Shown piece by piece: positions 51,425 to 64,000 of a DNA stretch of 64,000 nt (position 1 is the first letter of the stretch; each line of letters opens with the position of its first letter). The position numbers were made by a program, and so were the translations under genes. The DNA is taken from NCBI GenBank assembly GCA_006739055.1, contig AP019702.1, positions 1,240,501 through 1,304,500 on the forward strand, read 5' to 3'. Origin of the DNA: Allostella vacuolata. GTDB taxonomy: Bacteria > Pseudomonadota > Alphaproteobacteria > ATCC43930 > Allostellaceae. The notes under the pieces were generated by a model. The model was not told the DNA's origin. It saw nothing but the letters and a program-made list of their open reading frames with translations, and searched no databases.

Positions 51425-51453
51425 TTGACTTGGCATCCCCGGACCCATATCCC
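51425..51453 (+). promoter_or_regulatory. candidate promoter TTGACT-N17-TATCCC for the TetR gene
   Basis: TTGACT at 51425-51430 and TATCCC at 51448-51453 are 17 bases apart, within the 207-base gap before the TetR gene at 51544. Five of six -35 bases and three of six -10 bases match the housekeeping consensus. The leader would be about 80 bases. Confidence 0.35.
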
Positions 51454-51543
51454 TCGACCGCTTGCGGACCCGCTCCGCGAGATGGTCGGCATGCCGGCAT
51501 CCGGTCGCGCACGGCCGGCCGGAAGGATGGGTTCGGAACGGCG

Positions 51544-52242
51544 ATGGCGAATGCGCGTGTAACGGCGATCGATCGGCGGCGGACCGATACCCGTGACCGC
51601 ATTCTCGATGCCGCCGAGAAGCTGTTCTCCGAGCGGGGCTACGACGGGGTGTCGATCCGCGACATCACGCAGCTGGCCGGCGCGGGCCTGGCGCTGATGA
51701 CCTATCACTTCGGCACCAAGGACCGCTTGTTCGAGTGCGTGCTGGAACGGCGGGCCGAGGTCCTGAACCGCGATCGTCTGGCGGCCCTCGACGCGGTGCT
51801 GGCGCGGCAGAACCCGACGGTGGGCGAACTGCTGTCCGGCTTCGTCGAGCCCTATGTGCGCTACGGCTCCGGGCCGGACGCGGGGTGGCGCCACTATTGC
51901 CGGCTGATCGCCATCGTCGGGCCGACCGGGCGCTGGTCGGAGCTGCTGGGGCGGCTCTTCGACTCCACCGCGGAGAAGTTCATCGCCGCCCTGACCCGGA
52001 TCGAGCCCGGGCTCGACGAGGAGCGCGCGACCCGGGCATTCCTGTTCTGCGTCGGCACCATGGTCACCTCGTTCACCGGCAATCCCAGGCTCGACCGGCT
52101 GACGAAGCGGATGGCCATCGCCGCCGACCTCAACCGCACGTTCGACTACCTGATCCCGTTCATCGCCGGCGGGGTCGCCGCGATCGCCGACCTGGCGGAG
52201 CGCGAGGCACCCCCGCCCAGCCCGAGGCGCCGCTCGAAATAA
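51544..52242 (+). CDS. TetR-family transcriptional regulator
   Basis: The 232-residue protein has a TetR helix-turn-helix (about 15-60: R-I-L-D-A-A-E-K-L-F-S-E-R-G-Y then F-G-T-K-D-R-L-F near 56-63; the recognition helix has A-L-M-T-Y-H-F). The ligand domain follows, with W-R-H-Y-C-R-L near 117. It lies just before the amidohydrolase/Pot-type operon in the same direction with 146 bases between, including a palindrome at 52309-52332, so that operon is the likely target. The ligand is probably the pathway substrate (inference). Confidence 0.92.
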   Translation: MANARVTAIDRRRTDTRDRILDAAEKLFSERGYDGVSIRDITQLAGAGLALMTYHFGTKDRLFECVLERRAEVLNRDRLAALDAVLARQNPTVGELLSGFVEPYVRYGSGPDAGWRHYCRLIAIVGPTGRWSELLGRLFDSTAEKFIAALTRIEPGLDEERATRAFLFCVGTMVTSFTGNPRLDRLTKRMAIAADLNRTFDYLIPFIAGGVAAIADLAEREAPPPSPRRRSK

Positions 52243-52388: not shown

Positions 52389-53393
52389 ATGATCATCGAC
52401 GTCCATGCCCATGCCCTGAGCGAAGCGTTCGTGCGCGAGATGGCGGCATCCCCCGGGCTCGGCATGCCGGTCGAGGAGATCGGGCCGCACCAGTACCGGG
52501 TCGCGGGCTATGGCATCCTCGATCCCCTGATCTACGACCTGCCCGGCCGGCTGGAGAGCCTCCGCCGCCGCAACGTGTCGCTGCAGCTGGTCGGGCCGCC
52601 GCCGCCGCTCGTCGCCAACGGCGGGCGGGCGGCCGGTGTCGACCTGGCGCGTCGCATCAACCAGTCGACGGCCTGGGTGGCCGCCAACGGCGAAGGGCGG
52701 ATCGGCGGCCTGGCCGTGCCGCCCCTGGGCGAGCCCGAGCATGCGGCGGACGAGCTGCGGCGCGCGGTCGACGCGCATGGCTTCCTCGGCGTCAACCTCA
52801 GCACGGCGGCCGGGGCGCGCACGCTGGACGATCCGGCGTTCGAGGACCTGTTCGCGACGATCGAGGCCATGGACCTGATGGTCTTCATGCACTCCACCAG
52901 CTCGGCCCTCAGCGCGACCCAGAGCGACTTCACGCTGCGCACGCTGGTGGGCTGGCCGACGGAAACGACCGTCGCGGCCGCCCGGCTGGTCTTCGCGGGC
53001 GTGCTGGAACGCCACCCCCGCCTGAAGATCGTCCTGTCCCACGGCGGCGGCACGCTCGCGAGCCTGATGGGGCGGATCGACCTCGGCTGGAGCGCGCCGC
53101 GCTACGAGGCCAACGCCCGCTGCCGCGAGAACATCACCCGGGCGCCCAGCACCTATCTGCGACAGTTCCATGTCGACACGGTGGTGGCCGATCCCGACGT
53201 CCTGGCCTTCGTCGTCCGCACCTTCGGCGCCGACCATGTCCTGTTCGGCTCCGACTTTCCCTACGAGATCGGCGATGCCGAGGGGTTGCTGGCGCTGCCC
53301 GGCATCGGCCGGCTGCCGCAGCCCGAGCAGGCCGCGATCCTGCGCGGCAACGCTGCGCGCCTGCTCGGCCCGCGCCTGCCGGCCGGGATCTGA
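52389..53393 (+). CDS. metal-dependent amidohydrolase, ACMSD-like (amidohydrolase 2 family)
   Basis: The 334-residue TIM barrel starts I-I-D-V-H-A-H-A (2-9) with the H-x-H metal pair. F-M-H-S-T-S near 174 and L-S-H-G-G-G near 219 supply further His ligands, and F-G-S-D-F-P near 293-298 the catalytic Asp, as in 2-amino-3-carboxymuconate-6-semialdehyde decarboxylase and related decarboxylases/hydratases. It carries out decarboxylation or hydrolysis of a small acid. First gene of the Pot-type transport operon; 33 bases separate it from the binding protein gene. Confidence 0.9.
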   Translation: MIIDVHAHALSEAFVREMAASPGLGMPVEEIGPHQYRVAGYGILDPLIYDLPGRLESLRRRNVSLQLVGPPPPLVANGGRAAGVDLARRINQSTAWVAANGEGRIGGLAVPPLGEPEHAADELRRAVDAHGFLGVNLSTAAGARTLDDPAFEDLFATIEAMDLMVFMHSTSSALSATQSDFTLRTLVGWPTETTVAAARLVFAGVLERHPRLKIVLSHGGGTLASLMGRIDLGWSAPRYEANARCRENITRAPSTYLRQFHVDTVVADPDVLAFVVRTFGADHVLFGSDFPYEIGDAEGLLALPGIGRLPQPEQAAILRGNAARLLGPRLPAGI

Positions 53394-53426: not shown

Positions 53427-54458
53427 ATGAACACGAGGTCGATTGCGCTGCTTTCTACGCTGCTACTCGCCGCCCCGGGCGTCGGTTCGGCGCAGGAGAC
53501 GATCACCGTCGCCGCCTTCGGCGGCCAGTACCAGAAGCAGACGGGCGATGCCTGGTTCCGGCCGGCCGCCCAGAAGCTCGGGCTGCGGCTGTCGATGGAC
53601 ATCGTCGGCACCGCGGCCGACGTTCGCGCCCACGTCCAGGGCGGCAAGACCAACTGGGACGTCGTCCTGCTCGCCGGATCGAGCTGCGCCACGGTCGCCC
53701 GGGAGAAGCTGGTCCAGCCGCTGGACTACTCGGTCATCGACGCGGCCGGCATTCCCGCGCACATGGTCACGGAGCGCACGGTGGGCGTGCTGCAATATTC
53801 CACCGTGCTGGCCTGGAACAAGGAACAGCTGAAAGGCAAGGAGCCCAAGTCCTGGGCCGACTTCTGGGACGTCAAGGCGTTTCCCGGCCCCCGCGGGTTC
53901 GACGCCCGGGCGACCTTCAGCCTGGAGATCGCGACCATGGCCGACGGCGTGCCGCCGGCCCAGGTCTACCCGATCGACGTCGATCGCGCCTTCCGCAAGA
54001 TCGCGGAGCTGCGGCCGCACATCGCCACCTATTACGCCAACGGCGCGGTCGCGGTGCAGCTGCTGAAGGACGGCGAGGTCGACATGCTGCCGCTGTTCGA
54101 GAACCGGGTGCACGAACTGATCCGCGACGGCTTCCCGCTCGCCTTCACGCTCAACCAGGCGATCGTCGACATCAACTGCCTGGTCGTGCCGAACGGAACG
54201 CCCAAGCGCGACCTGGCGATGCGCATGATCGCCGAGATCGTCAAGCCGGAGATGAACGCGCGCATTGCCCAGACCTCCGACATGTCGCCGACCAACGCGC
54301 GGATCTTCGAGCTCGGGCTCATCCCGGCCGAGCGCGCGCAGAAGCTGAGCTCGCTGCCGGCCAACATGACGAACCAACTCGTTCTCGATGCGAACTGGTG
54401 GACGCCCGTCCTGAGCGAGCTGAACCAGCGCTACAAAGCCCTCATCAGCGCCCGATGA
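53427..54458 (+). CDS. periplasmic binding protein, polyamine/iron-type (SBP family 8/13)
   Basis: The 343-residue protein has a signal peptide (N-T-R-S-I-A-L-L-S-T-L-L-L-A-A, cleavage near G-S-A-Q at 22), then I-T-V-A-A-F-G-G-Q-Y near 25-34, W-D-V-V-L-L-A near 78-84 and S-W-A-D-F-W-D-V near 146-153, typical of PotD/PhnS-like receptors. P-V-L-S-E-L-N near the end. Ligand likely a small cationic or organic molecule; the charged pocket cannot be read from sequence. Overlaps the ATPase gene by ATGA. Confidence 0.93.
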   Translation: MNTRSIALLSTLLLAAPGVGSAQETITVAAFGGQYQKQTGDAWFRPAAQKLGLRLSMDIVGTAADVRAHVQGGKTNWDVVLLAGSSCATVAREKLVQPLDYSVIDAAGIPAHMVTERTVGVLQYSTVLAWNKEQLKGKEPKSWADFWDVKAFPGPRGFDARATFSLEIATMADGVPPAQVYPIDVDRAFRKIAELRPHIATYYANGAVAVQLLKDGEVDMLPLFENRVHELIRDGFPLAFTLNQAIVDINCLVVPNGTPKRDLAMRMIAEIVKPEMNARIAQTSDMSPTNARIFELGLIPAERAQKLSSLPANMTNQLVLDANWWTPVLSELNQRYKALISAR

Positions 54459-55579
54459 GCGCGGCCCCCTCCATTGCCCCCGGCCCCCCTGCGGGCAGGG
54501 GGGATACCCCGGCGGGCGAGGCCCTCAGCATGGCCGGCCTGCGCAAGAGCTATGGCGCGGTGCGGGCGCTCGACAGGGTCGACCTGGATGTGGCCGGCGG
54601 CAGTTTCGTCACCCTGCTCGGCCCGTCCGGTTCCGGCAAGACGACGCTGCTGATGGCCCTGGCCGGCCTGGTGGAGCTCGATGCCGGGACCATCACGGTG
54701 GGCGGGCGGCGACTGGAACACGCCCCGCCGCACAAGCGCGGGCTCGGTGTCGTGTTCCAGAACTATGCGCTCTTTCCGCATATGAACGTGCGCGACAACA
54801 TCTTCTATCCGCTGCGCACGCGCGGCATGCGCGCGGCGCAGGGGATCCCGGCGATCGAACGGGCACTGGAGCTGGTCCGCCTGGCCGGATATGGCGACCG
54901 CCAGGTCGATCAGCTTTCGGGCGGCCAGAAGCAACGGATCGCGCTCGCCCGGGCGCTGGTGTTCGCCCCGCCGGTGCTGCTCCTGGACGAACCCTTGTCC
55001 GCGCTCGACCGCAACCTCCGGGAGGAGATGCAGATCGAGCTGCGCCAGCTCCACCTCAGGCTCGGCACCACCATGATCATGGTCACCCACGACCAGGAGG
55101 AGGCGCTGGCGCTCTCCGACCACATCGCCATCATGGACCGCGGCCGCATCGTCCAGCAGGGCGCGCCGCGCGACGTCTATGCCCAGCCCAACTCGCGCTT
55201 CGTGGCGGGTTTCATCGGCCGCTCCCACTTGCTCCCGGTCACGGTGCAGGGCGGCGTCGCCTGCTGGAACGGCATCGCCGTGCCGACGCGCCGCCCGGCC
55301 GAGGCGGACGACGTCTGCCTCGTCGTGCGGCCCGAGCTGCTGGTGCCGCTGCCGGCGTCGGCAGGATCGGACCCGGCGCTCGGCGAGGCCGTCGTCTTCG
55401 ACGGCGTCGTCCGGGCGACGTCCTACCGCGGCGATGCGACGGTCACGATCGTGGCCCTGCCCGACGGGTCCGAGTTCCACCTGCGCCAGCCGTCCCTCGA
55501 CGGCATCGCAGTGCCGGCGCCCGGCACCGCGATGCGTCTCGGCCTGCGCCGCCAGGACGCCGAGCTGGTGAAGGCATGA
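54455..55579 (+). CDS. Pot-type ABC transporter ATP-binding protein (PotA/FbpC type)
   Basis: The 374-residue ATPase has Walker A G-P-S-G-S-G-K-T-T, V-F-Q-N-Y-A-L-F-P-H Q-loop, signature L-S-G-G-Q-K-Q-R, Walker B L-L-L-D-E-P-L-S-A-L-D, and H-loop V-T-H-D-Q-E. A C-terminal TOBE domain runs from about 265 to 370 (V-V-R-P-E-L-L-V near 290), which can modulate activity. The N-terminal 25 residues are Pro/Ala-rich and unconserved. ATGA overlaps on both sides. Confidence 0.95.
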   Translation: MSAAPSIAPGPPAGRGDTPAGEALSMAGLRKSYGAVRALDRVDLDVAGGSFVTLLGPSGSGKTTLLMALAGLVELDAGTITVGGRRLEHAPPHKRGLGVVFQNYALFPHMNVRDNIFYPLRTRGMRAAQGIPAIERALELVRLAGYGDRQVDQLSGGQKQRIALARALVFAPPVLLLDEPLSALDRNLREEMQIELRQLHLRLGTTMIMVTHDQEEALALSDHIAIMDRGRIVQQGAPRDVYAQPNSRFVAGFIGRSHLLPVTVQGGVACWNGIAVPTRRPAEADDVCLVVRPELLVPLPASAGSDPALGEAVVFDGVVRATSYRGDATVTIVALPDGSEFHLRQPSLDGIAVPAPGTAMRLGLRRQDAELVKA

Positions 55580-56460
55580 CCGCCGCGGCCCATCCGCCGC
55601 CCTCGCGCGGCCTCGGCCAGGCGGCCGTGAACCGGCTGCTGCCGATCGCGCTCGCCCTGCCGGCCGCACTCGTCGTGCTGATGGTGCTCTACGTGCCGAT
55701 CGCCTGGATGGCCTGGGTGTCCTTCCAGAACGAGGCCGGCTGGACGCTGGAGCATTACGGGCAGCTCGGCGACCCCAACAACCTCGGCTACCTGCTTCGC
55801 ACCTTCCGCATCGCGGCGATCGTCACCGCGCTCGCCCTGCTGGTCGCGTTCCCGACCGCCTACGGCATCTCCCTGATGCCGCGTCGGCTTGCCGATCTGT
55901 GCATGCTGCTGGTCCTGATGCCCTTCTTCACCTCGATCCTGGTCCGCACCTACGCCTGGATGCTGCTGCTCCAGCGGCGCGGCCTGATCAACACCTGGCT
56001 GGTCGAGACGGGTATCGTCGAGCAGCCACTGCGGCTCGTCTACAACGAGGTCGGCACCGTGATCGGCATGCTGCACGTCCTGGTGCCGCTGGCGATCCTG
56101 CCGATCTACGGCGCGTTGCGCGCGCTCGACGGCAGCCTGGTGGCCGCCGCCGCCACGCTCGGCGCCTCGCCCGTTCGCCGCTTCCTGACCATCACCCTGC
56201 CGCAGGCGACCCCCGGCATCGCCGCCGGCGGCATCACGGTGTTCGTCCTGTCGCTCGGCTTCTACGTCACGCCGGCCGTGCTGGGCGGCGGGCGCGTCGT
56301 CACCTGGGCGATGCTGGTCGAGACGGTGCTGCTGTTCAACCCGCAATGGGGCGCGGCCAGCGCGCTCGGCATCGCCCTGCTGGTCCTGACGCTGCTCGTG
56401 CTGTGGGCGGGCAAGGCCGTCTTCGGCCTGCGCGGCGGCCAGCGGTTCGACGCCCGATGA
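55576..56460 (+). CDS. Pot-type ABC transporter permease (PotB type)
   Basis: The 294-residue permease: N-terminal helix (about 15-40), P-F-F-T-S-I-L-V-R-T-Y near 115-125, coupling loop A-A-A-T-L-G-A-S-P near 193-201 and V-T-P-A-V-L-G-G near 232-239, as in PotB. Six helices expected. Overlaps both neighbours by four bases; pairs with the PotC-type subunit. Confidence 0.95.
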   Translation: MTAAAHPPPSRGLGQAAVNRLLPIALALPAALVVLMVLYVPIAWMAWVSFQNEAGWTLEHYGQLGDPNNLGYLLRTFRIAAIVTALALLVAFPTAYGISLMPRRLADLCMLLVLMPFFTSILVRTYAWMLLLQRRGLINTWLVETGIVEQPLRLVYNEVGTVIGMLHVLVPLAILPIYGALRALDGSLVAAAATLGASPVRRFLTITLPQATPGIAAGGITVFVLSLGFYVTPAVLGGGRVVTWAMLVETVLLFNPQWGAASALGIALLVLTLLVLWAGKAVFGLRGGQRFDAR

Positions 56461-57284
56461 GCGCGCCTTCCGACAGGCTGGTTCCCGCCTGGCGGCGGGC
56501 CTGGCTGTTCGCCATCGCCGGCCTGTGCCTGCTGTTCCTGGTGCTGCCGATCGTCCTGATCGTGCCGATGTCGTTCTCCGACACCAGCACCCTGCAGTTC
56601 CCGCCGCGCAACTGGTCGCTGCGCTGGTACCGCAGCTACTTCGAATCCGTGGAGTGGCGATCCGCCACCGCGGTGTCGTTCTGGGCCGCCCTGCTGACGA
56701 TGCTGATCGCGACCCCGATCGGCACGCTCGCCGCCTGGGCCCTGCGCCTGCGCGGCGGCAGGTTCGCCCTGTTCTTCTGGGCCATGATGATGAGCCCGCT
56801 GATCGTGCCGATCATCCTGGTCGGGGTGGGCGTGTTCTTCCTGTTCGCCCGCTTCGGCCTGACCAACACGATGACCGGGCTGGTCGCCGCGCACGTCATG
56901 CACGCGCTGCCCTTCGTCTTCCTGACGGTGGCGGCCGGGCTGAAGAACTTCGACCTGCGGCAGGAGATGATCGCCCGCTGCCTTGGTGCCTCACGCGTGT
57001 TCGCCTTCATGACCGTGGTGCTGCCGCAGATCCGCTTCTCGATCGGGGCGGCCGCCTTCCTGGCCTTCATGTCCTCGCTCGACGAGGTGGTCATCGCCTC
57101 GTTCATCACCGGGGGCGACATGGCGACCCTGCCGAAGCGGATGTTCGCGGAGCTGCGCAGCAGCATCGACCCGACCATCGCCGCCGTCTCGACCCTGCTG
57201 ATCGGCATCTCGGTCCTCGCCTTCGCCGGCAGCGAGATCCTGCAGCGCCGGGCCCGCGCCCGCCTGGGCGATGCCAGGGACTGA
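56457..57284 (+). CDS. Pot-type ABC transporter permease (PotC type)
   Basis: The 275-residue permease: first helix L-F-A-I-A-G-L-C-L-L-F-L-V-L-P near 18-32, P-M-S-F-S-D near 38-43, coupling loop A-R-C-L-G-A-S near 179-185, and S-S-L-D-E-V-V-I-A-S-F near 204-214, the PotC signature. Completes the importer. The acetoacetate-decarboxylase-like gene follows within about 40 bases. Confidence 0.95.
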   Translation: MSAPSDRLVPAWRRAWLFAIAGLCLLFLVLPIVLIVPMSFSDTSTLQFPPRNWSLRWYRSYFESVEWRSATAVSFWAALLTMLIATPIGTLAAWALRLRGGRFALFFWAMMMSPLIVPIILVGVGVFFLFARFGLTNTMTGLVAAHVMHALPFVFLTVAAGLKNFDLRQEMIARCLGASRVFAFMTVVLPQIRFSIGAAAFLAFMSSLDEVVIASFITGGDMATLPKRMFAELRSSIDPTIAAVSTLLIGISVLAFAGSEILQRRARARLGDARD

Positions 57285-57324
57285 AAAATCCGTGCCCAAC
57301 AACGAGATCGAGAGCGAGGCTGGA

Positions 57325-58161
57325 ATGGCCCACCGGTTCAAGGAAGGGATGCTCTATCGCATGCCGGCCCATTTCGGGCCGACGGCGGGGCCGCGACAGG
57401 GACCGGACGGCCAGACCTTCGACTGGACGGACAGCCCGCGGCGCACCACGGTCAGCCTTGGCTTCCGCACCGAGCCGGCGGCGCTCGAGGCCCTGCTGCC
57501 ACCCGGTCTGGCCCTGGTCGGGGAGCCGCTGGTGACGATCGAGATCACCTACCTGACCGAGCTCGAATGGCTGGCCGGCCGCGGCTACAACATGCTGGGC
57601 GTGCGCTTCCCGGCGGAGTTCCGCGGCCGTCGCGACCATGTGGTCGGGAGCTTCCTGTCGATCCTGTGGGAGAACCTGTCCGACCCGATCCTGAGCGGCC
57701 GGGACGAGCTCGGCTTCAGCAAGCTCTATTGCGAGATCCCCGACCCGCGGGTGCTGCGCGGGCGCCGGTCCCACAACGCCCTGTGGCTCGGGCACGAGTT
57801 CTTCACGCTCGATGCCTGGGACCTGGCCGAGGTGCCGGCCGCAGCGGTGGCCGCCGCCGCGGTGGGCGTGCGCAACGACGGCCTGCTGCATTTCAAGTAC
57901 GTGCCGCGGACCGGGACCCCCGGCCAGGCCGATATCGCGGCGGTGACCTTCACCCCGGCCGCCGGCAGCCGGTCGGTCGTCGACCGGGCATGGCGCGGGC
58001 AGGGCACGCACGCCTTTCGCCGCTCGACCTGGGAGCAGCTGCCGACGATGTTCCACATCGTCAATGCCCTGGAGGGCCTGCCCGTCGTCGAGCGGGGGGC
58101 CGCCTGGGTCGTCCAGGCCCATGGCGGCAAGGACCTGGGCGACCAGCGGACGCTGGAATAG
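57325..58161 (+). CDS. acetoacetate decarboxylase-like family protein
   Basis: The 278-residue protein fits the ADC beta-cone fold: T-V-S-L-G-F-R near 42-48, G-R-D-E-L-G-F-S-K-L near 125-134 with Lys133 where ADC has its Schiff-base Lys, and I-P-D-P near 138. ADC-family proteins decarboxylate beta-keto acids or catalyse aldol-type steps through Lys imines. The ATG at 57325 is chosen; an in-frame ATG at 57271 would overlap the permease gene by 14 bases and is an alternative. In context it would act on a keto acid from the imported compound. Confidence 0.85.
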   Translation: MAHRFKEGMLYRMPAHFGPTAGPRQGPDGQTFDWTDSPRRTTVSLGFRTEPAALEALLPPGLALVGEPLVTIEITYLTELEWLAGRGYNMLGVRFPAEFRGRRDHVVGSFLSILWENLSDPILSGRDELGFSKLYCEIPDPRVLRGRRSHNALWLGHEFFTLDAWDLAEVPAAAVAAAAVGVRNDGLLHFKYVPRTGTPGQADIAAVTFTPAAGSRSVVDRAWRGQGTHAFRRSTWEQLPTMFHIVNALEGLPVVERGAAWVVQAHGGKDLGDQRTLE

Positions 58162-58216
58162 GCCCGCGACCGGGCCACCGGCACAGAGCTTAACCCTACC
58201 CATCGAGGATCGGGCG

Positions 58217-59605
58217 ATGAGGATCGAGGACGCGCCGCCGTCGGGCGGCGGCGAGGGGACCACTTGGCCGGCCGCCCGGAAGGCGGGGGCGCTCGTCTTC
58301 GTCGGCGGCCACACGCCGCACGACCCGGCGACCGGGCGCCTGGTGCTGGGCACCGCCGACCTGCCCGGGGATGCGGCAGCGTCGCTGCGCGCCTCGGTGC
58401 TCTTCACCGAGGTCGTGGCCGGCCGGCTGCGGGCGCAGACATGGCGGGTGCTGCTGAACCTGCAGCAGACCCTGGAACGCACGGGGTCCTCGATCCGCCA
58501 CGTCGTCCATATCCGCGTCTTTCTGCATGACGTGGCGGACGAGGGGCCGGTTCTCGACCTGCTGCGCCGGTTCTTCGGCGACGACCTGTGCTCGGGCGAG
58601 GTCGTCGAGGCGCGCAACGAGGGCTCCGATCCCGAGATCCTGGTGCAGATGGACTGCGTGGCCCTGTCGGTCGACGCCGGCCGCACCGAGCATGCCTGGG
58701 TGGCCGGGCTGGAGCCGCTGACCGCGCCCTTCCCGACGGTGACGAAGGCGGGCGGCTTCCTCTTCTCCTCGCAGCTGGCCGGCGCCGACCCGGCGACCGG
58801 CGAGCCCGTCATCGCCGGCCGGCAGCTTTCGCCGCGCGCGGCGGCGCTGCTCGGGCCGCTGGCGCAGCAGGCGACGCGCCTGCACCTGCCGTTCTTCCTG
58901 CAGCAGGCGGTCATGTGGGAGCATCTGCTGGCCATCCTCACCGCCTTCGGCGTCGACTGGAAGTCGACCCTCTATCACATGAACTGGATGCGCCGGCCGA
59001 TGCGGGTATTCGCCGACGGCTCGGTCACCCGCCGCATCATGGAGCATACCGGCGACTACCTGCTGACCTGCTTCCCGACCTCCGGCCTCGGGGTTCCGGG
59101 TGCGGAGATCGCCGGCCGGATCGTCGCGATCCTGCCCGAGAGCGGGATGCGGAAGGACATCCGGGTACCGATCCACGGCATCTCCAACTCCTACTTCGGG
59201 GCGATCAAGGCCGGCCCCTACCTGTTCGCGGCGGGCGAGGTGCCGATCGACACCCGGGCCTGGACGCTGGTCGACCGTGCCGAGCGGCTGGAGGCGCCGC
59301 GCCACCGACTGGCCTTCGGCAGGCCCTACCCGACGGCACCGATCCTGCCCCAGGCCCACTACATCTACTCGCTCTACGAGCAGACGATGGCGGCCTATGG
59401 CGGCAGCCTCGCCGACGGCGTGCACCAGACGGTCTACCTCTGCCATGCGGGGGACGGACCGGCGCTGGAAGGGGTGATCGCCGACCGGTTCGCCGGTCGC
59501 CCGCCCGCGACCACGATCGTGCCCATCACCGGCGCATCGCCGTTCGCGGGCACGCGGCTCGAGCTCGAGATGGCGGCCTATCTCGGTCCCGGCGACCGCT
59601 CCTGA
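58217..59605 (+). CDS. multi-domain RidA/YjgF-family protein (about three RidA-like units fused)
   Basis: The protein has 462 residues, more than three times a normal RidA (about 130). Unit 1 is near 20-150 (V-F-V-G-G-H-T-P, V-V-H-I-R-V-F-L, E-A-R-N..I-L-V-Q-M-D). Unit 2 is near 170-300 (F-L-F-S-S-Q-L-A-G, G-V-D-W-K-S-T-L). Unit 3 is near 330-460 (Y-L-F-A-A-G-E-V-P, V-H-Q-T-V-Y-L, P-A-T-T-I-V-P-I, E-L-E-M). RidA proteins hydrolyse reactive enamines/imines and form trimers, so a fused chain may be a one-polypeptide trimer. The usual catalytic Arg near R-V-F/R-N is kept in unit 1 but not clear in units 2 and 3. Confidence 0.85.
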   Translation: MRIEDAPPSGGGEGTTWPAARKAGALVFVGGHTPHDPATGRLVLGTADLPGDAAASLRASVLFTEVVAGRLRAQTWRVLLNLQQTLERTGSSIRHVVHIRVFLHDVADEGPVLDLLRRFFGDDLCSGEVVEARNEGSDPEILVQMDCVALSVDAGRTEHAWVAGLEPLTAPFPTVTKAGGFLFSSQLAGADPATGEPVIAGRQLSPRAAALLGPLAQQATRLHLPFFLQQAVMWEHLLAILTAFGVDWKSTLYHMNWMRRPMRVFADGSVTRRIMEHTGDYLLTCFPTSGLGVPGAEIAGRIVAILPESGMRKDIRVPIHGISNSYFGAIKAGPYLFAAGEVPIDTRAWTLVDRAERLEAPRHRLAFGRPYPTAPILPQAHYIYSLYEQTMAAYGGSLADGVHQTVYLCHAGDGPALEGVIADRFAGRPPATTIVPITGASPFAGTRLELEMAAYLGPGDRS

Positions 59606-59658: not shown

Positions 59659-60660
59659 ATGATCCGACTTCCCAGCACGATCGAGGCCGCGAATCGCAGC
59701 GCGACGATCGAGGACGTCCTCGCCCTGTCGCAGAGGCTCAGCAACTGGGGCCGCTGGGGGGCGGAAGACCAGGTCGGCACCGTCAACCTGATCACCCCCG
59801 CCAAGGTGCGGGAGGGGGCTGCCTGCATCCGCACGGGCCGGCAGTTCTCGCTGGCGGTTCCGTTCAACCAGCAGGGGCCGCAGACCGGACTGACCGCGCG
59901 CTTCAACCCGATGCTGTTCATGACCCGGGACGGCAACGACATCGCCACTGACGCGATCCGCCGCCTGCCGCGCTACACCCACGAATGCCATTCGCGTTTC
60001 ACCGACGACGTCTGGGTGCTGCCGTCCCAGGCGGGCACGCAGTGGGACGCGCTCGCCCATTGCATCCACGACAACCGCATGTACAACGGCTTCTCGGCCG
60101 ACAAGGTCGCGAGCTGGGGGACGACCCATTGCGGCATCGAGGTCTGGAAGGACCGCATCGCCAGCCGCGGTGTGCTGCTCGACCTGCCGCGCTGGTGCGG
60201 GCGGGACTGGCTCGACCCGGGCGAGGCGATCTTCGCCCGGCATCTGGAGGAATGCGCCGCGGCCCAGGGGGTCGCCATCGGCTCGGGCGACATCGTCCTG
60301 GTCCGGACCGGCGCCATCAGCGCCTGTCATGCGGCCGGGCGCTGGGGCGACTATGCCGGCGGCAATGCGCCGGGGCTGGCGATCGACGCCGCGGAATGGA
60401 TCCGGCGCCATGACCTGGCCGGGGTGGCCACGGATACCTGGGGTGCCGAGGTCCGCCCGAACCAGACGGACGACGTCTTCCAGCCCTTCCATATCGTCGC
60501 GCTGGTCTATATGGGGCTACTGCTTGGGGAAATCTTCGACCTCGACGCCCTGGCTGCGGATTGCGCTGCCGACGGTCAGTACGACTTCCAGTTCTTCGCG
60601 CCGCCCCTGCCGATGACGGGCGCGGTCGGCGCGCCGATCAACCCGATCGCCATCAAGTAG
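59659..60660 (+). CDS. cyclase-family metal-dependent hydrolase (kynurenine formamidase-type fold)
   Basis: The 333-residue protein starts at the ATG at 59659 after GGAG. Family motif near 133-141 reads A-G-T-Q-W-D-A-L-A-H, a variant of H-x-G-T-H-x-D-x-P-x-H that binds metals in cyclase/isatin hydrolase/KynB proteins; the first His is missing and Gln stands for the second. T-D-T-W-G-A-E near 255-262 and P-F-H-I-V-A-L near 274-280 are the usual C-terminal partners. Likely cleaves a cyclic or linear amide. Follows the RidA gene by 53 bases. Confidence 0.88.
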   Translation: MIRLPSTIEAANRSATIEDVLALSQRLSNWGRWGAEDQVGTVNLITPAKVREGAACIRTGRQFSLAVPFNQQGPQTGLTARFNPMLFMTRDGNDIATDAIRRLPRYTHECHSRFTDDVWVLPSQAGTQWDALAHCIHDNRMYNGFSADKVASWGTTHCGIEVWKDRIASRGVLLDLPRWCGRDWLDPGEAIFARHLEECAAAQGVAIGSGDIVLVRTGAISACHAAGRWGDYAGGNAPGLAIDAAEWIRRHDLAGVATDTWGAEVRPNQTDDVFQPFHIVALVYMGLLLGEIFDLDALAADCAADGQYDFQFFAPPLPMTGAVGAPINPIAIK

Positions 60661-60681
60661 GCGCCTACCGGACGAGTGGCC

Positions 60682-61518
60682 ATGGACCAGGGAGGTTTAC
60701 CCTTTGACGATGAGCTGGAGCGGCAGTTCAACCCGCGCGTCACCGTGCCGGACTTCCAGCACTACCTGGACCGGGCCGCGGCGGCGAGCCGGGCGGCCCG
60801 CGCCGAATGTCCGGCCTTCTTCGACGTCCGCTACGGCGACGGTCCCCGGCAGTCCGTAGACGTCTTTCCCGCGGACGACCTGGAGGCGCCCGTCCTCGTC
60901 TTCGTCCATGGCGGGTTCTGGCGAGCCCTGGGCAAGGAGCAGTTCTCCGGCCTGGCCGCCACCATGCGGCCCCAGGGCATCGCCACGGTCCTGGTCGGAT
61001 ACGACCTTTGCCCGGCGGTGACGCTGGACACCATCGTCCGCCAGGTCGCGGACGCCGTCGGCTGGTGCCGGCCCGGGCTGGCGCGCCTCGGCCTGCGGCC
61101 GCGCCGGATGGTGCTGGCCGGCTCCTCGGCGGGTGCGCACCTGGTCGCCATGGCCCTGTTCGGCCGCGGCGGCACGGGGGTCGACGGCGCCTGCCTCGTC
61201 AGCGGCATCTACGACCTGGCGCCGGTCCTGCGCATCTCGGTCAACCGCGACATCCGCCTGGACGAGGACGCGGCCCGCCGCAACAGCCCGATCGCGCGGG
61301 TCCGGTGGCTCGGCCTGCCGCTCATCGTCGCCGTTGGTGCCCGGGAATCGCCGGCCTGGCGGCAGCAGTCGGCCAGCTTCGCCAGGCGCTGCATCGCCGA
61401 AGGGATCGACACCGGCTTCATCGAGCTGCCCCTGGCCCATCATTTCTCGACCGGCCTGGCCATATCCGGCAGCACCATCAACCGCCTCACCGCCAAGCTC
61501 TGCATCGGCCAGCGCTAG
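60682..61518 (+). CDS. alpha/beta hydrolase, arylformamidase-like
   Basis: The 278-residue hydrolase has H-G-G-F-W near 74-78, the H-G-G-Y/F-W motif of kynurenine formamidase and related carboxylesterases, nucleophile elbow G-S-S-A-G-A near 149-154 (Ser151), and a late catalytic His in L-A-H-H-F near 254-258. The usual acid would be in V-G-A-R-E near 222, with Glu for Asp. Two formamidase-like folds in one cluster suggest amide cleavage steps. The start may be GTG 60676 or ATG 60682; neither has a strong ribosome site. Confidence 0.88.
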   Translation: MDQGGLPFDDELERQFNPRVTVPDFQHYLDRAAAASRAARAECPAFFDVRYGDGPRQSVDVFPADDLEAPVLVFVHGGFWRALGKEQFSGLAATMRPQGIATVLVGYDLCPAVTLDTIVRQVADAVGWCRPGLARLGLRPRRMVLAGSSAGAHLVAMALFGRGGTGVDGACLVSGIYDLAPVLRISVNRDIRLDEDAARRNSPIARVRWLGLPLIVAVGARESPAWRQQSASFARRCIAEGIDTGFIELPLAHHFSTGLAISGSTINRLTAKLCIGQR

Positions 61519-61652
61519 TCGCCGGGATGGCCAGCAGGCCGTGCCACGGGCGGAATACGCCGAAATCTTGATCGCTTGCTTGGCGCGATCGGACGGTGGC
61601 ACCATCGATCCCGAGGGGCGGCAGCGCCCGATGCAGCTGGAGGATCGATCGG

Positions 61653-62819
61653 GTGCCTATGGAGAGGATCACGAGCCGGGCGGCCTGGAAAGGGTCCGAG
61701 GTCGACTACCGGACCGAGATGATGCACCGCTTCACCGATGCCGAGGTGGCGGAGATCGATTCCGCGCTCCAGGCCTGCGGCGAGCGCGACATTCCGGAGA
61801 TCACGCCGGCCACCTTCCCGCTGCCGGGCATGGCGGCGAAGATGGCGGCCCTGCGTGACGAGCTGCTGGACGGGCGCGGCGTGGTGCTGATGCGCGGCTT
61901 CCCGCGCGAGCGCTATTCCGCCGACGAGATGGCCCGGGTCTATGTCGGACTCGGCGCCCATCTGGGCCAGCCGGTGGCGCAGTCCTGGCAGGGCCAGCTG
62001 CTCGGCAGCGTCATCGACATCAGCGACGTGATGGAGCGGGTGCGGGGCTACAATGCCGGCGGCGGCCAGCACTTCCACATCGACGGCTCGGCCTGCGACA
62101 TCGTCTCGCTGATGTGCCTGCGCCGGGCGCTGTCGGGTGGCGCCAGCCGCATCGTCAGCGTCTCGGCCATCCACAACCGGATGCTGGATACGCGGCCGGA
62201 CCTGCTGGAGGTGCTCTATCGCGGCTACTACTTCCGCAACCACGAGATGGATGCGGAGCATTCGCTGTTCCCCGCGCAGAGCGCCGAGCGCATCCCGGTC
62301 TTCACCCAGCGCGACGGGCGGCTCACCTGCGTCATCGATTCGGGCAGCCTGCGCTACGCGGTGCAGCAGGGCGGGATCACCATGTCCGACCCGGAGATGG
62401 AGGCCTATGACGAGCTGCAGCGCCTGGCCCGCTCCGAGGAATTCTTCCTCGACATGAATTTCGAGGAAGGGGACATCCAGTTCCTCAACAACCGGGTCAT
62501 CATGCACGCCCGGACCAACTACGAGGACCATCCGGACGTCGCCCGGCGGCGGCATCTGCTGCGCCTGTGGCTGCGCGTCGACGACTGGCCGGCCCGGCCG
62601 GCCCACCAGGTCTTCCTCAACGACATGGATTGCCGCCACTGGCAGGAGACCAACCGGCGCCCCTTCATGGAGCTGCCGAGCCGCTATCTGGCCGAAATGG
62701 CCGCCATGCAGGAACGCCGTCGGCGCGAGAAGACGGTGCTGCCGCCGGCGGTCACCGCCGGGCGTTCGCCCAGCGCCCGCGGCTGGCACGAGGAGCGCGA
62801 CCGGGCGGCCGCCGGCTGA
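61653..62819 (+). CDS. TauD/TfdA-family Fe(II)/2-oxoglutarate dioxygenase, tandem copy 1
   Basis: The protein has 388 residues from the GTG at 61653, chosen because GGAGG lies 9 bases before it and the tandem copy has a matching start (M-x-M-x-R-I). Metal triad: H-I-D (His142, Asp144) and His285 in I-M-H-A-R-T-N; R-R-R-H-L-L-R-L-W-L-R carries the 2-oxoglutarate Arg. G-Q-H-F-H-I-D-G is the substrate-side loop. It probably hydroxylates an aliphatic carbon of the pathway compound. Very similar to the next gene and more distantly to the oxygenase at 32223. The C-terminal 40 residues after M-Q-E-R are low complexity. Confidence 0.92.
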   Translation: MPMERITSRAAWKGSEVDYRTEMMHRFTDAEVAEIDSALQACGERDIPEITPATFPLPGMAAKMAALRDELLDGRGVVLMRGFPRERYSADEMARVYVGLGAHLGQPVAQSWQGQLLGSVIDISDVMERVRGYNAGGGQHFHIDGSACDIVSLMCLRRALSGGASRIVSVSAIHNRMLDTRPDLLEVLYRGYYFRNHEMDAEHSLFPAQSAERIPVFTQRDGRLTCVIDSGSLRYAVQQGGITMSDPEMEAYDELQRLARSEEFFLDMNFEEGDIQFLNNRVIMHARTNYEDHPDVARRRHLLRLWLRVDDWPARPAHQVFLNDMDCRHWQETNRRPFMELPSRYLAEMAAMQERRRREKTVLPPAVTAGRSPSARGWHEERDRAAAG

Positions 62820-62928
62820 GGGTCGTGCCCGCTCCGGCCGGCAAATTGCCGCGGGCGGGACCGCCCAGGCTGGCATACCGTGTGCACACCGAATGGACCA
62901 ACCGATCGAGCGATTTGGGAGTAGTGTC

Positions 62929-64000
62929 GTGGACATGCCGAGGATAGCGACACGCGCGGCGTGGAAAGGGTCCGAGATCGACTACCGGACCGAGATGATG
63001 CACCGCTTCACCGACGACGAGGTGGCGGAGATCGATGGCGCGCTGAAGGCGTGCGGCGATCGCGACATCGCCGAGATCAGCCGCGAGACCTTCCCGCTGC
63101 CGGACATGGGGCAGGCCCTGCTCGGCCTGCGCGACGAACTCCTGGACGGGCGCGGCGTGGTGCTGATGCGCGGCTTCCCCCGCGATCGCTACACGGCCGA
63201 CGAGATGGCGCGGATCTATGTCGGGCTCGGCGTCCATCTCGGTCGCCCGGTCGCCCAGTCCTGGTACGGCCAGCTGCTCGGCAGCGTCATCGACATCAGC
63301 GACGTGGTCGAGAAGGTGCGGGGCTACAATGCCGGCGGCGGCCAGCACTTCCACATCGACACGTCCGCCTGCGACATCGTCTCGCTGATGTGCCTGCGCC
63401 GTGCGCTGTCGGGCGGCGCCAGCCGCATCGTCAGCCTGTCGGCGGTGCACAACCAGCTGCTGGATACGCGGCCGGACCTGCTGGAGGTGCTCTATCGCGG
63501 CTACTACAACCATCACCACGAGATGGACGCCAAGTACGCGGTGACCGCGCCGCTCAGCGCCGAGCGCATCCCGGTCATGACCCAGACCGACGGGCGCCTG
63601 ACCGGCGTTCTCGATTCGGGCAACCTGCGCTACGCCGTGCAGATGGGCGGGGTGACCCTGGATCCGGTCGAGATCGAGGCCTACGACGAGCTGCAGCGGA
63701 TCGCGCGGTCCGAGGAGTTCTTCCTCGACATGAATTTCGAGGAAGGGGACATCCAGTTCCTCAACAACCGCACCATCATGCACGCCCGGACCAACTACGA
63801 GGACCATCCGGACGTGGCCCGGCGCCGGCACCTGCTGCGCCTGTGGCTGCGGGTCGACGAATGGCCGGCCAGGCTGGCCCACCAGCTGTTCCTGACCGAC
63901 GCCGACACCACCAACTGGCTGCAGAACCGCCGGCCCTTCATGGAACTGCCGTCGAAGTACCTGGCCGAGATGACCGCGGCCCAGGAGAAGCGGCGCCGCG
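62929..64000 (+). CDS. TauD/TfdA-family dioxygenase, tandem copy 2, cut by window end
   Basis: 357 codons are visible with no stop. The start is the GTG at 62929 with GGGAG seven bases before it; the first residues M-D-M-P-R-I parallel copy 1. Metal residues His142 and Asp144 fall at identical positions (H-I-D-T here, H-I-D-G in copy 1), and I-M-H-A-R-T-N is kept. Differences cluster in the loop after the metal site (N-H-H-H-E-M-D-A-K-Y-A versus F-R-N-H-E-M-D-A-E-H-S) and near 95-115, where substrate specificity would change. Only the C-terminal tail is missing. Confidence 0.92.
   Translation, partial: MDMPRIATRAAWKGSEIDYRTEMMHRFTDDEVAEIDGALKACGDRDIAEISRETFPLPDMGQALLGLRDELLDGRGVVLMRGFPRDRYTADEMARIYVGLGVHLGRPVAQSWYGQLLGSVIDISDVVEKVRGYNAGGGQHFHIDTSACDIVSLMCLRRALSGGASRIVSLSAVHNQLLDTRPDLLEVLYRGYYNHHHEMDAKYAVTAPLSAERIPVMTQTDGRLTGVLDSGNLRYAVQMGGVTLDPVEIEAYDELQRIARSEEFFLDMNFEEGDIQFLNNRTIMHARTNYEDHPDVARRRHLLRLWLRVDEWPARLAHQLFLTDADTTNWLQNRRPFMELPSKYLAEMTAAQEKRRR

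Follow-up and report, generated by a model that had tools for sequence, protein, structure and literature searches.

The 3x-Rid gene and its neighbours

The gene described here lies at 58217-59605 on the plus strand of the window (the whole 64,000-nucleotide stretch of DNA that was analysed), where an open frame encodes a protein of 462 amino acids followed by a stop codon. It was confirmed as a real gene with three tandem Rid units, and is referred to below as the 3x-Rid gene. In every unit, GC content was 92-95% at codon position 3 compared with 49-54% at position 2, and GAGGA is located 7 bases 5' of the ATG. An alternative start, ATG 58064, was rejected since it overlaps the preceding gene and since the relative in G002, one of three other genomes of the same genus, aligns from approximately the same start as 58217. 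An antisense open frame of 611 codons (57106-58941, minus strand) runs across the 3x-Rid gene and the gene before it, which encodes a protein with an acetoacetate-decarboxylase fold (ADC). This frame was rejected as a gene and taken to be a shadow frame of the 71% GC sequence.

The 3x-Rid gene is located within a cluster of genes that all lie in the same direction:

51430..52242, plus strand: TetR-family regulator at the head of the cluster (PF00440, PF17939; start uncertain)
52389..53393, plus strand: amidohydrolase (Amidohydro_2, PF04909, E 2.1e-42)
53427..54458, plus strand: ABC substrate-binding protein (SBP_bac_8, PF13416; a weak NCBIfam PotD match falls far below the cut-off)
54398..55579, plus strand: ABC transporter ATPase (PF00005; first start codon used, the true start may be further in)
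55576..56460, plus strand: ABC transporter permease (PF00528)
ending at 57284, plus strand: second permease, recognised by eye
57271..58161, plus strand: ADC protein (PF06314, E 4e-24), 55 bp upstream of the 3x-Rid start
58217..59605, plus strand: 3x-Rid
59659..60660, plus strand: cyclase-family protein (PF04199, E 4.1e-20), directly downstream of 3x-Rid
60676..61518, plus strand: alpha/beta hydrolase (PF20434, PF07859)
61596..62819, plus strand: TauD/TfdA-family protein, first of a tandem pair (PF02668, E 3.4e-30; start uncertain)
62893-64000, plus strand: TauD/TfdA-family protein, second of the pair, running on to position 4595 of L054

The shared direction and the spacing of these genes suggest that they form one operon. 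The two TauD/TfdA-family genes, which share 78% identity across 387 residues, represent a tandem duplication that closes the cluster. Past the end of the window lie an oligopeptide-type ABC transporter and a gene of the PEP-mutase/ICL family.

Rid units and their pocket residues

The 462-residue chain was divided into three units:

58217..58681, plus strand: Rid unit 1, residues 1-155 (best solved relative 3lyb, E 1.7e-13)
58682..59149, plus strand: Rid unit 2, residues 156-311 (best solved match 2dyy, a YjgF-family chain, E 0.062, obtained with a two-row profile)
59150..59605, plus strand: Rid unit 3, residues 312-462 and the stop (2dyy, E 1.5e-9; 3lyb, E 1.7e-7)

Pfam identified PF01042 (Ribonuc_L-PSP) in the protein at 57.3 bits (cut-off 27.3) over two stretches that correspond to units 1 and 3, and no other family at E up to 1. 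When the protein was compared with solved structures by phmmer, 3lyb was matched via unit 1 (E 9e-10), other YjgF-family chains were matched mostly via unit 1, and no match came from unit 2. Each unit, represented by its window and G002 rows, was then aligned by hhalign with a profile of 21 single-domain Rid proteins; these had been gathered by phmmer match to the window protein, so the reference set leans to units 1 and 3. The probabilities were 99.6 for unit 1, 93.1 for unit 2 (over 103 columns) and 98.6 for unit 3. Reversed sequences scored 0.1 each, and the highest of 20 column shuffles per unit scored 1.4, 0.8 and 3.6 for units 1, 2 and 3, respectively. Because all three units exceeded their reversed and shuffled controls, these results indicated that the chain consists of three Rid units. 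The preliminary description had named about three RidA-like units in one chain, and would have given way to one or two Rid domains joined to an unrelated third part; the three units were found.

Unit 2 is the weakest and most diverged of the three, and its assignment as Rid rests essentially on profile-profile comparison. It is highly improbable that unit 2 is an unrelated linker domain and the protein a two-Rid fusion: the two Pfam stretches, the E value of 0.062 (although to a Rid chain), an hhalign probability of 0.3% between units 2 and 3 and an AlphaFold2 model of unit 2 with no Rid-like fold (units 1 and 3 as alignment; mostly helix, pLDDT 41.0, a confidence too low to count) would agree with this, but they are set against the match of unit 2 to the Rid set with its far lower controls, a probability of 93.2% between units 1 and 2 (92.6% between 1 and 3), and an insertion that matches those of the other units in position and length. 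Structure prediction of the whole chain alone was likewise of too low confidence (pLDDT 35.8). By analogy with the 3x-RidA proteins, which were named in 2015 with EF_0115 as the example and are presumed there to be covalently linked trimers (PMC4433059), the three units in one chain are presumably a covalently linked trimer.

Seven residues are totally conserved in the pocket of TdcF, according to PMC1884159: Tyr17, Gly31, Asn56, Asn88, Arg105, Pro114 and Glu120. To map these positions, the units were aligned with TdcF, RidA, YjgH and RutC of E. coli NC_000913. The equivalents, in the same order, were W17, G31, N81, L113, G127, D138 and Q144 in unit 1 and F172, Q186, H236, G268, L283, V293 and A299 in unit 2, where positions taken singly depend on the alignment in both units, and Y326, G340, L386, E418, T432, F443 and E449 in unit 3. 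Thus two of the seven residues are kept in unit 1, none in unit 2, and three (Tyr, Gly and Glu) in unit 3. The mapping of the active-site arginine that had been proposed found no equivalent of Arg105 in any unit, its place being taken by Gly127, Leu283 and Thr432. The suggestion that a single site keeps the catalytic residues therefore failed for this protein. The equivalents of Tyr17 and Glu120 are present in unit 3 only. The closest arginine to the Arg105 position is Arg133, six residues after it, in unit 1 and Arg428, four residues before Thr432, in unit 3; residues 276-292 of unit 2 contain none. Arg428 is kept in the G002 relative and could stand in for Arg105.

The G002 relative also lacks the arginine, with Val, Leu and Thr in units 1-3, and has Val, Thr and Glu at the Glu120 position, so that Glu again occurs in unit 3 only. 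The two proteins are 35% identical overall, and 36, 35 and 37% by unit. Because this similarity is equal across the three units, no unit looks released from selection. At the seven pocket positions, identity was 5/7 in unit 3, 3/7 in unit 1 and 2/7 in unit 2; the excess in unit 3 was not significant (binomial p = 0.07), and the higher pocket conservation of unit 3 is suggestive only. Each of the three units also contains residues outside the Rid consensus that are identical in the two proteins, such as His32/His35, His254 and His403.

With Ala in place of this arginine, the plant and S. enterica RidA proteins lost nearly all imine hydrolysis, and the Arg-less Rid7 of S. enterica did not hydrolyse the leucine-derived imine, as described in PMC4433059. 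With Gly, Leu and Thr at this position, RidA-type binding and hydrolysis of alpha-imino acids would not be expected of the window protein, judging from this mutagenesis of other Rid proteins. The protein also missed the NCBIfam cut-offs for the Rid detoxifying hydrolase (TIGR00004, 48.4 vs 106.25) and for RutC, the 3-aminoacrylate deaminase (TIGR03610, 25.4 vs 169.1). The published 3x-RidA proteins were placed in the RidA subfamily, which carries Arg105 or, in about 10% of cases, Ser (PMC4433059). The units of the window protein fell outside this subfamily, both by the missing Arg105 and by the TIGR00004 score.

PF01042 was found at 12 places in the genome, the 3x-Rid gene included. Ten of the 11 others could be mapped (L088 fell below the profile threshold), and these carry Arg105 in eight cases, Trp in one and Ser in one, and Glu120 in all ten. 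Since eight of the ten mapped paralogues carry Arg105, the cell probably does not rely on 3x-Rid for ordinary imine clean-up.

Relatives of the fused protein

Among the 61 genomes of the nearest kin, full-length relatives were found in the genome itself and in G002 only. None beyond the gene itself was found in 385 sampled genomes of the class or in 398 sampled genomes of the phylum, where up to four candidates were scored per genome and weak matches may therefore be missed. Searches of genome contigs and viral contigs, and of plasmids by tblastn, from which records of this or very near genomes may be absent, gave no relative of the window protein. Query A3 likewise found no relative among the viral contigs, and the protein of L063 had one short match there (L077).

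Eleven frames with the 3x-Rid arrangement were collected: that of the window, L002/G002, L003, L005, L006, L009, L010, L027, L050, L066 and L070. That of L010 is shorter, and its third unit breaks off. L066, L027, L009 and L050 were mapped residue by residue in addition to G002. At the Arg105 position, units 1-3 have Arg/Arg/Arg in L066, Ser/Arg/Thr in L027, Ser/Leu/Ala in L009 and Trp/Tyr/Trp in L050. All three units of L066 have Gln at the Glu120 position although they keep Arg105, which makes Glu120 less telling than Arg105. The frame at L027:1144-2415 (plus strand, genome G314) encodes a 424-residue 3x-Rid with Arg105 in exactly one of its three units, so the proposal of a single catalytic site fits L027 better than the window protein.

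A tree was built from 44 rows and 126 columns, comprising the 18 units of six 3x-Rid proteins and 26 single domains; its bootstrap had not settled, and the clades tested were chosen after the proteins had been seen. The L066 units grouped together (100/100), nested with E. coli RidA and TdcF in a less firm group (84/91); those of L050 grouped with E. coli YjgH (100/99). A single clade of all 18 units was rejected (AU p = 0.003), as was a clade of the L066 and L050 units (AU p = 0.026). A clade of the six window and G002 units (AU p = 0.317), and one of these units with those of L027 and L009 (AU p = 0.195), were neither supported nor rejected, and we are unsure of the place of the window units in this sequence tree. 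Since a single clade of the 3x units examined was rejected, fused Rid trimers appear to have arisen more than once. The L050 protein (L050:847-2058, minus strand, genome G236; 404 residues), with its units that group with YjgH, is a triple Rid outside the RidA subfamily.

The insertion before helix 1 was measured between TdcF positions 43 and 49. It is 5-6 residues long in 23 of the 26 single-domain rows, 10 in L040, and 31 in L063 and L064, which are of the 3lyb type. For units 1, 2 and 3 the lengths were 30, 30 and 26 in the window protein, 30, 29 and 26 in G002, 18, 16 and 16 in L027, and 18, 17 and 16 in L009; every unit of L066 and L050 has 6. The 3lyb-type single Rid proteins (L063, L064, L076; PDB 3lyb) thus resemble the window protein in insertion length, in that 3lyb is the best solved relative of unit 1, in having Ser for Arg105 in the two that were mapped (L063 and L064), and in their transporter/hydrolase clusters. 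They differ in having one unit and in keeping Glu120, and they do not group with the window units in the tree; the similar insertion length does not prove descent from 3lyb-type Rids. L027, from the same class, and L003, L005, L006 and L009, from another family of the same order, share the three Rid-like units, and L027 and L009 share insertions and the loss of Arg in two and three of their three units, respectively; these proteins nevertheless are only 19-20% identical to the window protein and have other neighbours. TdcF, RidA and RutC of E. coli belong to the same sequence family but are short, single-unit proteins with the Arg.

The architecture itself is already known. Like 3x-RidA of the EF_0115 type, the window protein has three tandem fused Rid domains in a presumed covalent trimer; as that type is described, the window protein differs in lacking Arg105, in its unlike units and in its insertions of 26-30 residues. 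DUF71 proteins with two fused YjgF-like domains have also been described (PMC3541065). What sets the window protein apart is the absence of Arg from every unit together with the long insertions. In the full-text literature covered, which leaves out most subscription journals, the term "3x-RidA" occurred in PMC4433059 only; within the same coverage no study of the function of any 3x-Rid was found, as judged by titles and the beginnings of abstracts.

The genes around other fused Rids were diverse. The G002 gene is flanked by an XRE-cupin regulator and an SDR (both by Pfam) and adjoins a branched-chain-type ABC transporter, recognised by eye. The L006 gene adjoins a Bac_luciferase monooxygenase and an NMT1-type substrate-binding protein with its ATPase; that of L050 is near an isochorismatase-family protein, an amidase and an aminotransferase; that of L003 is near a molybdopterin-binding oxidoreductase and an MmgE/PrpD protein; and that of L027 has an ABC ATPase upstream (tblastn). 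Three loci of single Rids of the 3lyb type (L100, L101 and L102) share a recurring cluster with Amidohydro_3 in all three and a creatininase-family gene in two. An NMT1 substrate-binding protein was found at all three of them, at two by Pfam and at the third by eye. Because the loci examined were hand-picked, lack a control group and differ in gene content, they support a catabolic setting only loosely.

Possible function of the Arg-less fused Rid

The explanation that we favour, tentatively and somewhat short of calling it probable, is that the protein is a divergent 3x-Rid and presumed pseudo-trimer that is not an alpha-imino-acid deaminase. Its substrate would be an intermediate formed from a compound that the cell takes up, and unit 3 may line the cleft in which the reaction takes place. 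By comparison with the homotrimers of the family, the three unlike units would fold as a single pseudo-trimer with three inter-unit clefts. The units may be specialised, in that units 1 and 2 have lost most of their pocket residues and unit 3, with its equivalents of Tyr17, Gly31 and Glu120, most likely lines one working site that a neighbouring unit completes. The importer and hydrolase genes of the cluster suggest that the substrate probably arises as an intermediate when an imported compound, which may be nitrogen-containing or a ring, is broken down. The reaction could be the addition of water to an enamine or imine, or a related hydrolysis, possibly of a ring-derived intermediate. Kynurenine-like and heterocycle pathways were considered as candidate pathway types from the neighbouring genes. 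Of 60 other genomes, two had a relative of the ADC protein at E up to 1e-15, and tblastn at 1e-6 matched none of the remaining cluster genes near either. Since the G002 neighbourhood differs and these two relatives stand without the rest of the cluster, the cluster may mislead as to the substrate.

The protein might instead be a non-catalytic, ligand-binding or regulatory component of the cluster, with the Rid fold serving as sensor or scaffold. The large replacement of pocket residues in units 1 and 2 is consistent with this, as is the statement in PMC4433059 that, as of 2015, nothing at all was known of what the Arg-less subfamilies Rid4-Rid7 do. We consider it unlikely, as the cluster is already headed by a TetR regulator and the Tyr/Gly/Glu set of unit 3 is kept in both the window and G002 proteins.

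It is quite unlikely that the protein is an ordinary 3x-RidA imine/enamine deaminase that guards against reactive imines and has merely diverged in sequence. Proteins with three Rid units have been described as 3x-RidA, and unit 3 keeps Glu120 and Tyr17, with the conserved Arg428 nearby; yet Arg105 is missing from all three units whereas L066 keeps it in all three, the score falls below the detoxifying-hydrolase cut-off, and most of the mapped paralogues in the genome keep the Arg.

A Toblerone-like enzyme of the kind of cyanuric acid hydrolase, with three fused Rid-derived units and a site moved to the central barrel, would be very unlikely. AtzD likely arose by the joining of YjgF-family monomers into one chain and has its active site, with potential Ser-Lys dyads, in the central barrel (PMC3758960). 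The non-consensus residues shared by the window and G002 proteins in all units, such as the histidines named above, could fit such a moved site. In contrast, no sequence match of the window protein to the AtzD/barbiturase family was seen: the comparison with solved structures listed 35 sequences at E up to 10, and none of these was a cyanuric-acid-hydrolase chain. Pfam, which presumably holds an AtzD model, returned PF01042 and no AtzD match at E up to 1, a range in which HMMER drops most matches above E 0.1.

On the reading of a divergent, presumed pseudo-trimeric 3x-Rid, the fusion of Rid trimers, repeated in evolution, may have freed the units to diverge, and here the Arg chemistry would have been lost from all three sites, with the pseudo-trimer becoming asymmetric and gaining a new activity. 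L066 with three Arg, L027 with one, and L009 and the window protein with none could then represent steps of this route. We regard this scenario as a whole as rather doubtful.

An Arg-less 3x-Rid whose units are all equally conserved, located among transporter and hydrolase genes, offers a handle on the role of Arg-less Rid proteins. Its gene neighbours point to candidate substrates, and because the units are joined in one chain their sites can be altered one at a time, unlike those of a homotrimer.
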